NCBI GenBank assembly: GCA_009760855.2
Contig: WPIO01000002.1
Location: 2,205,001 to 2,269,000 of the forward strand
Length of the DNA: 64,000 nt
DNA from: Cristatella mucedo
Lineage: Eukaryota; Bryozoa; Phylactolaemata; Cristatellidae
Direction of reading: 5' to 3'
The notes below the pieces were generated by a model. It had not been told where the DNA came from. It made no database searches and saw only the letters and a program-made list of their open reading frames with translations. The translations under genes were made by a program, and so were the position numbers. Positions 21,489 to 24,400 of the stretch are shown piece after piece. Every line of letters starts with the position of its first letter. The stretch's first letter is position 1.

Positions 21489-24400
21489 GTAAGGCATAAA
21501 TTACTGTCCTGACAATGCTGGACTAAGTTTTACCCAAGCAAGGGCCACACACACAAAGGACCCTCCACGATTGCCGATGTTGTCAAATCGAGACTGTTAA
21601 GTGAACCTGCTCATGTACACTGCTTTCCTGAACCATCTCGGTATCGAATGTTTGACTCGATCATGGATCCTAAATAGTGCTATGTAAATGCTGGCTGATC
21701 TTAATGCTTCACATAAATTAGTAGAAGTCCCCCATCCAATTCGAGAGGGCTTGTTGCACTGGTTGTATGCTATCGTTAGCTATTACTATGGATTCTAGTT
21801 TATTTGTGCTTCTCTTTCTCTCTTCATTAAGGCCACTGCTGCTTGATTTTTAAGTAGTAGTGACAATTTTCACAGAAGAGTATAATCGCTGGCTCTAGTG
21901 AGTGGTCTCTATATTATCGGCTCACACAAACAGAATGTATAATGCAAGTATGGAAATAGCTAAACGTTGCACACTCAGGCAAAACCCATTAAAAAATATA
22001 GTATTAAGTTTATGTTGCAATGAGTATATTACACTTTGGCACTTGCTATATTCATGCTTGCATTTAGCTTTCTGTTTGTGAAAGCCGCTGAGTAATATGG
22101 AGCATACTATCGTGTGGAAGTTAGCAATGTCTCCCCTTTATTGACATTATCGAAGCAATGCCACACTGAACAGTGTAGCATTGATAGGAATAAACAAACT
22201 AGAATCCGTGTCAGTGGGGTATCATAGCATATTGCCGAGGCCACTAACACACCTCACATTGGTTTTGTCTGCGGGAACTGCTATTTGAGGCTATTTAGGC
22301 ACGGCTATGAGTAGCTTCTAATTAGTACCATCTTGGGTACGTGATCAGATTTAGCATTCACAGTGAATCGCTCAGGAAAGCATTGCGAATGAACTAACAG
22401 CCTTGCTTATAATCCCTGTCTGGTCACTGAGGGCCCTTTGTCAGTGTGGCCCTTTATCATGGTGCATTGGATCTTCAGATGTCTGATAGTCCTATTAAGC
22501 TGTTTGCATGCGTGTGTCTGCTGCTAACTGCAAGTTTTTCAAGTTTGTTTTTGCATTAGCTGGAATATAATTTTTTGTACTGAATGATCTCATTACATGG
22601 TGAGCATCCTCTGGAGGTCTGTAGTCCGGCTTATTTACTGCATGCATTGCATTATGTGCTCCGATGGTTTTCCTCATTGAGTGAGCTCATACAATCAATG
22701 AAAACCGAAAACGCGTGTCGATTCAAGCCACTTCAGAGAGCAGAGCGTATAGCATATCACTTTTACAGGATTTTTATCTTTGCCCAACTGCTTAAAAATC
22801 CTGCATGTGGTGTATTTGGTTGTTTTCTGTGGGTGCTTGACCCGGATTTGAATCTAAAAGTAAAAGCAGGTCCTTGGAAATGCCGATATGTTCGATCTCG
22901 TGCCGTATGTCGTACCGAGGAACCTGCCCTCAGATGCTTGGATTTAACTTGGCTATTGTAGGCATCTTTAAATGCTACCAGTATGCAAACCTGCTGCATG
23001 TGGTGCTACCGGTGTTAGATAGGAATGCTCGCACAAGTGCGATCCTCACGAATTTGAGAGTGGTTGTGCCACTAACCACACTTGCATGCTGACCCTGTGC
23101 ATGTCACCCCTAACCATATTATTCATGTTGTTTATCAAGCATGATATTACTCACCATTCAATCGTGTTTCCATTTGCAGCAAATGTAAAGCTCCTAGAAA
23201 GAGATCGAGTTGTCTGCGGGCGCTTTATCGAGTGCATTGTTATTATTATTATTATTATTATTATTATTATTATAAAGGACTAGGTGCCGTGTGTGAGGCT
23301 GGCTCTTCTTTTTAGTTAAAGATGGTCAAAAAACGAAAGATCAAGTATGTATTTGGTATTTTCTCTGAAAACATGCCATGCTGTCATGGCGATTGACTAG
23401 TTTGTATCAGTCTAGAAAGCATCATTATCTTATTCGTTTGTGAAGCTTGTGTAACTTCAGTACTCATAGTAAGCAGTCTGCTGTATACCTGAGAGTAACG
23501 CTTTTTGGTTGGTAGTTCAACGAGATACCCATTTATTGGTGAGTCGTTTGAGGGGGTAAGCATTAGCTGCAGAGATTTTGAGAATTATTTAAGAGCAGTA
23601 TCCTGCAAGAGCTTTGCGCATCTGCCGAGCTGGTTTGGTCCAGCGGTTAAGGCGCTCGCCCCGGCCAAGGTCTGGCTGAGGTCGTGGGCTCGAGCCCCGA
23701 GGCATGTATGTAAAGCGCCTGAATAGAGATTAAGTTCTCTTGGGGCGCTATACAAATGAATTATATTTATATTTATTCATCATTTTGTTCAGTATTGTCA
23801 TTGTCGGTCTTGTTGAAATGTGGCCTGGCATGCACACGGATATCAGCAGTGCAACCGATTTTTGAAGTAGCTTATTTCACCGTTCCTCAAGCCTCAGGCA
23901 GCTGCCCTACTTTTTACTTCACTTAGTTTCTGCTTCCACTCTGCACCTCTGGAATCTGAGTAAGTTGGTTTATATTGGCGTTTTCATAGGCTATTTGATG
24001 TGTCCATATTTCCTCACAGATTATAGGATTAAAGCTGTCCAGACTCTGAGTAGATGTGCATAATATTTGTCTTGTATTGAAAGCAGGTCAGCTTCGTAAA
24101 TTTCTCTTTGCTTGCTTGTGCAGGTAGATCTAGATTAAGCCACCGAGGCTTAGCCCTGATATTGCCACGATGGTTTGGCCCAGTGGTTAAGATGCTCACC
24201 CAGACCAAGGTCTGGCCGAGGTCGTGGGCTCGAGCCCCGTGCTATATGTGAAGCACCTGAATAGAGTTCTCTTTAGTTCTTTTAGTTTTATACAAATGAG
24301 AGAGAGAGAGAGAGAGATATATATATATATATATATATGTATATGTATATGTATGTATATATATATATATATTGCACGGGATAGGCAATCATTAGTGGAC

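Follow-up and report, generated by a model that had tools for sequence, protein, structure and literature searches.

The closest described counterparts of the elements considered here are pairs of a SINE and a LINE with like 3' ends. In the eel, the LINE UnaL2 (L2 clade, stringent type) and UnaSINE1 have in common a 3' stem-loop with a short terminal repeat behind it; the account of this pair describes the UnaL2 reverse transcriptase (RT) as able to recognise the UnaSINE1 tail and the internal loop of the hairpin as mattering (PMC5135761). For the zebrafish L2 LINEs ZfL2-1 and ZfL2-2, also of the stringent type, the loop is reported to set specificity while the stems can be swapped, and ORF2 is reported to bind the hairpin via a region between the endonuclease (EN) and the RT, with P, W, E and W as the conserved residues of the L2 tail-binding region (PMC4176376). 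The passerine SINEs TguSINE1 and PittSINE combine tRNA-like heads with CR1-derived hairpin tails, whose source subfamily was identified by tail phylogeny (PMC5729268), and the partner LINE of Metulj and other heliconiine butterfly SINEs was inferred from their 3' ends (PMC6685494). Hence, the mechanism class, i.e., a SINE with a LINE-type 3' hairpin, is already known.

The window, the whole 64,000-nucleotide stretch of Cristatella mucedo DNA analysed here, holds elements of this class: a SINE, S1, and a LINE, LINE A, have homologous 3' stem-loops, each with a short terminal repeat of its own behind it, much as in the eel pair, and S1 has a tRNA-like head, as in the passerine one. The particulars depart from each described system. 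In place of the GGAUA loop and (TGTAA)n end of UnaL2, the hairpins here have a UURAGU loop and the LINE ends in an (ATT)n repeat; further, unlike in UnaL2/UnaSINE1 as described, the SINE hairpin matches an old LINE better than a young one (PMC5135761). In the passerine case SINE and tail donor overlapped in time, whereas here the donor lineage looks long dead (PMC5729268), and the RTE-type partner suspected for Metulj and its relatives is unlike the one considered here (PMC6685494). The S1 and LINE sequence strings were not found in the full texts of open-licence papers, which were the literature covered. Elsewhere in the window, an ORF on the reverse strand (59105-60670) carries a VWD domain (6.8e-23), a sub-threshold VWC match and a GGC repeat (60138-60227). 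We take this ORF to resemble BMPER/crossveinless-2.

S1, LINE A and their common hairpin

The S1 copy under study, of subfamily S1a (23624..23776, forward strand), consists of a tRNA-like head (23624-23701), the shared tail (23702-23764) and a terminal ATTTATATTTATT repeat reaching 23776, such that 23702-23776 reads GCATGTATGTAAAGCGCCTGAATAGAGATTAAGTTCTCTTGGGGCGCTATACAAATGAATTAT and then ATTTATATTTATT. Its hairpin (23712..23749, forward) has the outer stem AGCGCCT/GGGCGCT, the inner stem AGAGA/TCTCT and the loop TTAAGT, and the GGCGCT of the outer stem continues as ATACAAATG. Other S1 copies lie on the reverse strand at 5698..5864, 19509..19653 (a TTAGGG variant), 50713..50853 and 58061..58212, and on the forward strand there are an S1-type copy at 44707..44863, older S1-type copies at 1049..1217 (with a CCTGGATAG..TTAGGG hairpin), 39427..39521 and 56653..56780, and a decayed S1 copy at 24163..24299. 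Box A, with one mismatch, is present in 25/30 SINE copies as against 3/65 LINE copies, and box A together with box B in 21/30 as against 0/65, counts that are partly circular in that the SINE class was assigned by a head HMM or a box-B-like motif. On the sequence of its head, with Pol III box A and box B, S1 is classed as a putative tRNA-derived SINE. Rfam gave no tRNA match in 23600-23790 at E<=1, only a weak riboswitch match (E 0.62), and no match anywhere in the window at gathering threshold; ARAGORN found 0 tRNA genes in the window.

A second SINE subfamily, S1b, with a UUUAGU loop and an (ATT)n end, is seen in loci L061-L069. Its hairpin, CCTGGATAGAGATTTAGTTCTCTTGGGG, is common to 7 of the 11 SINE-headed matches fetched with a joined query described below, and 10 of these 11 end in (ATT)n, but that query itself ended in (ATT)n. 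Loci L066 and L070 combine an S1a-type hairpin with an (ATT)n end. The idea that SINE copies never carry the LINE-type (ATT)n was corrected by loci L061-L070; among the classified tails of the sample and the picked loci, (ATT)>=3 occurs in 0/30 SINE copies versus 52/65 LINE copies, and a ATATTTAT terminal repeat in 11/30 SINE copies.

LINE A is represented on the forward strand by an ORF2 end (61246..61860), an ORF whose C-terminal protein is the same as that of a decayed LINE A copy elsewhere (L019), and by the 3' UTR and tail that follow (61863..62100), with the hairpin at 62026-62065, then ATCAAGTG and (ATT)n; the GGTGCT of its outer stem continues as TTATCAAGTG. Additional copies are found on the reverse strand at 34488..35372 (97.0% like the 61256-62086 copy over 735 bp, and with a 5'-truncated LINE A tail in the opposite orientation at 35221-35273), at 13831..14753 and at 11953..12988, the last two each with an ORF2 end and tail, and a LINE A-lineage copy with a ATATAAAATG 3' flank lies on the forward strand at 47088..47731. 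Pfam gave no match on the 61246..61860 piece itself; the L019 copy, read in pieces, matches Exo_endo_phos (PF03372, 6.6e-9) and RVT_1 (PF00078, 5.4e-21). Judged by these domain matches, LINE A is a real LINE with an AP-type EN and an RT. Among PDB entries, the LINE RT is matched best by distant RTs, R2 and L1 ORF2 among them (E about 1e-8 to 1e-7). The L2-like clade name is one that we presume, from general resemblance and the spacing in the linker. In that linker, W and E are spaced as described for the L2 tail-binding region of ZfL2-1 and ZfL2-2 (PMC4176376), with Y instead of the last W and L instead of P, the L standing before the first W in L019; tail binding by LINE A is putative.

A different RT-coding LINE occupies 30967-32600 on the forward strand (RVT_1, 8.4e-15), and no hairpin of the S1/LINE A kind was seen at its 3' end, within 32380-33000. 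By eye, a like 3' end is present in locus L100 and, inverted, in L099, and just after this LINE there is a tRNA-like stretch (32920-32990, forward) with box B GTGGGTTCGATTCCTGC, unlike the S1 head, which is perhaps another SINE family.

The abundance of the shared tail was assessed in a sample of 264 kb, comprising the window and 20 random 10-kb stretches from 17 large contigs of the 572-Mb assembly. A tail HMM recovered 29 de-duplicated tails in the window at E<=0.01 and 74 in the 200 kb of random sequence from the same genome; these 103 tails comprise 49 LINE-headed, 10 probably LINE, 22 SINE-headed and 22 unclassified ones, which scaled roughly to the genome gives on the order of 10^5 LINE tails and 5x10^4 SINE tails. 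Of 117 tails, 22 were unclassified, and 5 were left out of the tail alignment as too short. Sequence resembling a single LINE A copy, used as a 3.3 kb query, makes up 40.6 kb, about 15%, of the sample. LINE A sequence lies on both sides of 5/30 SINE copies, four of them from loci picked by S1 similarity and one from the sample's 22; since most of the flanked copies come from such picked loci and LINE A-like sequence is this common, no insertion preference for LINE A is claimed. At three of the LINE A-flanked SINE sites (L003, L006, L007) no clear target duplication was discerned by eye.

The original prediction held the S1 and LINE A tails to be homologous and to fold as a nested hairpin, and on both points it is borne out. 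The two tail half-patterns, with up to 3 mismatches, have 23 and 25 matches in the window versus 0.24 and 1.62 expected, a few of these matches being the opposite strand of the same hairpin; this rules out chance likeness. The S1 hairpin has 7 pairs in the outer stem, 5 in the inner stem and a loop of 6 nt, and folds at -18.3 kcal/mol (z -4.55 versus shuffles), and the LINE A tail at 62026 folds with z -4.83 versus shuffles; a tail at 52870 of LINE B type (see below) folds more weakly (z -1.82). The consensus hairpins of LINEs A, B and C and of S1a and S1b (z -3.6 to -5.4) all have one plan, namely a 5-bp inner stem, a 6-nt loop, a 4x2 internal loop and a 7-bp outer stem. In B, C, S1a and S1b a 4-bp basal helix is added beyond a single mismatch; in LINE A one unbroken 11-bp stem replaces the basal helix and mismatch. 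S1 and LINE A end in homologous hairpins, and thus a SINE and a LINE share a 3' stem-loop. The prediction's letters need amending, as 'at' is missing after the S1 outer stem and 'tt' after that of LINE A (whose quoted tail is 62018-62090); the continuation, ATACAAATG versus TTATCAAGTG, is one of the things separating the two tails.

Covariation in the stems, which had been proposed as a check, brought no such support. Stem cells are paired in 89.1% of cases in register versus 38.6-65.6% when slid. However, across 12 pairs, 82 hairpin rows (73 distinct) and 500 shuffles, no compensatory changes beyond shuffles were detected on five measures: pairs with two-sided change (3 versus 3.3 in shuffles; 404 of 500 as high), two-sided cells (14 versus 9.9; 36 of 500), further pair types (15 versus 15.5; 408 of 500), the covariation score (0.136 versus 0.127; 56 of 500) and cells paired (89.1% versus 88.6%; 43 of 500). 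Of the 14 two-sided cells, 13 sit at the two pairs made of CpG letters. As the stems are kept as sequence and vary mainly at CpG-derived pairs, this test neither supports nor excludes the structure.

Lineage of the S1 hairpin

Two further classes of LINE tail bear on where the S1 hairpin came from. An older LINE B-type copy at 26808..29138 (forward), which we read as one copy, has a linker with W-x15-E-x2-Y at 26823, a C-terminal end at 28412-28735 and a tail at 29076-29138, and another LINE B-type tail, GCATATGTGAAG..GCTATACAAAT, lies at 52862..52930 (forward). The consensus of the older LINE B bin is GCATATGTAAAGTGCCTAGAAAGAGATTNAGTTCTCTGAGGGTGCTATACAAATGTATTATTATT (27 aligned, somewhat mixed) and that of the LINE A tail GCAAATGTAAAGCGCCTAGAAAGAGATTRAGTTCTCTGAGGGCGCTTTATCAAGTGCATTATTATT (38 copies aligned); the A/B split relied on a pattern in the 3' flank, and among the 27 of the LINE B bin are a few A-like copies and one LINE C copy. 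Along the LINE copies sorted by divergence, ATAC or ATATC predominates in the 3' flank of old copies and gives way to TTTATC in young ones.

The third class, LINE C, was discovered via a whole-genome search with an odd copy in L024 and has the tail consensus GCGAGTTGTAAAGCGCCTGGATAGAGATTAAGTTCTCTTAGGGCGCTATACAAACGACCTATTATTATT. In the window it is represented on the reverse strand by a decayed LINE C-type tail, CTTGATAGAGATT..GTGCTATACAAACGACC, at 58640..58698 and a decayed LINE C-like tail, CATACAGACGACCGATTAT, at 52372..52415. At 3 of 11 LINE C loci (L030, L032, L038) the tail is immediately preceded by an ORF2 C-terminus of matching orientation, 44-46% identical to that of LINE A; this in-place coding sequence identifies LINE C as a LINE and a relative of LINE A. 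At one locus (L058, G000:C687:7491432-7491815) four LINE C tail matches follow one another in tandem, about 96 bp apart. At two others (L024:1238-1347, reverse, and L040 1416-1507, forward) a LINE A tail is immediately followed by a short LINE C 3' end, an arrangement suggestive of LINE A insertion into old copies of LINE C.

Over 48 columns, with class consensuses typed by hand from copies, the S1 hairpin differs from that of LINE C at 3 positions, from LINE B at 9 and from LINE A at 9-10. Taken singly, 30/30 SINE copies, labelled by their heads and thus independently of the hairpin, have LINE C as the nearest class, whereas among 55 LINE copies one is nearest LINE C and one tied between B and C; the 17 unclassified tails include 4 nearest LINE C and 2 tied between B and C. 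A tree of 82 hairpins on 47 columns (alignment A1, with 22/27 SINE rows, 51/60 LINE rows and 9/11 LINE C loci) places S1 and LINE C on one branch against A and B with support 94/97, just short of the tool's mark, and 97% of the 200 bootstrap trees contain this split. S1 and LINE C are interleaved in the best tree, with 47/70 inner branches open, and LINE C as a single clade is not rejected (p-AU 0.548, with a log-likelihood 2.40 higher). Given that the constrained tree is no worse and that so many branches are open, the separation of A/B from the rest is the one feature of the tree relied on here; as a LINE C clade is not rejected, the position of S1 may be intermediate between C and A/B and not within C.

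The flanks add a second line of comparison. The outer flanks of S1, GCATATGT and ATACAAATG, agree with the LINE B bin and not with LINE A, and LINE B was at one stage considered as the hairpin source on account of these flanks; it was dropped after LINE C was found, its internal loop not being shared with S1. The full S1 tail exactly matches none of A, B and C. The S1 hairpin is most likely, on these alignments, of the LINE C type and not derived from LINE A.

This bears directly on the original prediction, by which S1 took its tail from LINE A and is mobilised by it. In favour of that model as a whole, stems and loop are common to S1 and LINE A, LINE A encodes an EN and an RT, the ages of the two overlap (see below), and LINE A is the only young hairpin-bearing LINE seen. 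Against the borrowing, the nearest-class assignments of all 30 SINE copies, the hairpin tree and the LINE B-like flanks concur, and descent of the S1 tail from LINE A is rejected; donor and carrier in one, LINE A appears highly improbable, while its role as carrier is a separate matter. A genome-wide difference of the consensus tails, named beforehand as counting against the model, is found in the internal loop, in both flanks and in the S1a terminal repeat, and is absent from the stems and loop.

Family ages and the probable present partner of S1

The comparison of ages that had been suggested bore out an overlap of S1 and LINE A. Of 40 scored matches to a 97-nt S1a query, 8 are 100% identical, and in 6 of these the identity extends over all 97 nt; the youth of S1b, whose copies reach 96.8% likeness, is less clear than that of S1a. 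For LINE A, a pair of copies within the 200-kb random sample (L010/L011) is 99.2% identical over 515 bp, and one copy bearing a LINE A tail has a 611-aa open frame. In the 264-kb sample, non-CpG distances have a median of 0.106 and a least value of 0.025 for S1 (n=13), and 0.086 and 0.011 for the LINE A 3' UTR (n=45). S1a and LINE A are young, with overlapping ages. LINE C is old and looks dead: the best 40 of 3178 candidates reach no more than 94% likeness to the consensus, and among 20 of these that were fetched the likeness is at most 85% over the tail and at most 73% over about 340 bp, flanks included.

The tail likeness of S1 thus leads to a decayed lineage, and a young LINE with an S1-type hairpin was sought in several ways. 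No young copies with the LINE C pre-tail were present among the best 40 of the 3178. Of the 42 scored matches to the joined query (a LINE A/B pre-tail, the S1/C hairpin and an (ATT)n end), 2 of them short second matches, 20 were fetched, i.e., all 9 LINE-headed ones and 11 of the 31 others; all 9 LINE-headed matches carry A/B-type hairpins and all 11 others are SINE-headed, and hence no S1-type hairpin behind an A/B pre-tail on a LINE was found among the scored matches. With an 81-aa piece of the LINE C protein, for which the best 150 of 70,315 candidates were scored, the matches at least 58% identical (the query apart) are without a stop-free frame over 136 aa. Twenty of these 150 were fetched at their 3' ends, namely the 17 with the longest open frames and 3 others of higher similarity. 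A LINE A-type tail is present in 18 of them, including all 17 longest-frame ones, with the loops UUAAGU (11, the same as S1a), UUGAGU (5), UUAAAU (1) and one unscored; the hairpin is absent in 2, both among the 3 of higher similarity, and an S1/C-type hairpin is present in 0 of the 20. On these searches, LINE A alone among the hairpin-bearing LINEs was seen with young copies.

Since the scoring was confined to the best candidates, a rare partner with a different 3' UTR has to be reckoned with. Such a LINE D, a low-copy young member of the LINE C lineage, would bear the exact S1 tail, including GCATATGT and the ATATTTAT end, and would account for a full tail and terminal repeat that A, B and C do not match; partner LINEs can, moreover, be rare. 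The searches among the best candidates speak against it, with neither a young LINE C pre-tail nor an A/B pre-tail joined to an S1 hairpin, and with A-type tails in 18/20 relatives and S1-type tails in none, and we regard LINE D as unlikely, if a serious contender.

Alternatively, recognition might be loose, with any L2-like ORF2 in the cell copying S1, including that of the hairpin-less LINE at 30967-32600. Other RT-coding LINEs do exist, and 2/20 fetched relatives lack the hairpin; however, the hairpin is kept in S1a copies that are 100% identical and is letter-for-letter the same in 7/11 S1b-type matches, which loose copying would not require, and the L2 LINEs tested elsewhere are described as strict (PMC4176376). 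Loose recognition is, hence, very unlikely.

By elimination, and by that only, LINE A is the most likely partner, and the reading we prefer, at a probability of roughly 0.55, is that the S1 hairpin was taken from the LINE C lineage and that S1 is now moved by LINE A. S1 would be a short SINE in which a tRNA-like head is joined to a 3' end formed by the recognition hairpin of an L2-like LINE of the stringent type. This hairpin would have been acquired from the lineage of LINE C, which is related to LINE A and has since decayed, and S1 would have been still active after LINE C was silenced. Most likely, the EN-RT of young LINE A copies S1 today, presumably reading the features common to both, i.e., the 7-bp outer stem, the 5-bp inner stem and the 6-nt UURAGU loop, and tolerating the differing internal loop and flanks of S1. 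By analogy with the eel and zebrafish L2 LINEs, as far as these are described, ORF2 would bind the hairpin and begin copying at the terminal repeat (PMC4176376, PMC5135761). We infer from this analogy that LINE A could recognise and copy S1 RNA, and the zebrafish account, with the loop decisive and the stems exchangeable, fits a SINE and a LINE that share loop and stems and differ elsewhere (PMC4176376). Counting against LINE A as the carrier are the S1a terminal repeat, which is not the (ATT)n of LINE A, and the differing internal loop, a part that matters in UnaL2 (PMC5135761). The stricter form of the proposal, in which S1 switched LINE with its hairpin unchanged, the donor LINE C having died and LINE A copying it via the conserved stems and loop alone, is tentative, and we place it somewhat below even odds.

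Implications for SINE partnership

If S1 did switch LINE, a SINE can survive the loss of the LINE from which it was assembled. The usual basis for assigning a SINE to its partner is likeness of the tail; for S1 that likeness points to a dead-looking LINE, yet the SINE is young, and, should LINE A be the carrier, an assignment by tail likeness alone can single out the wrong partner. Additionally, the A, B, C, S1a and S1b variants, with like stems, a loop differing at one base, and different internal loops and flanks, offer a ready set for asking what an L2-type ORF2 reads.
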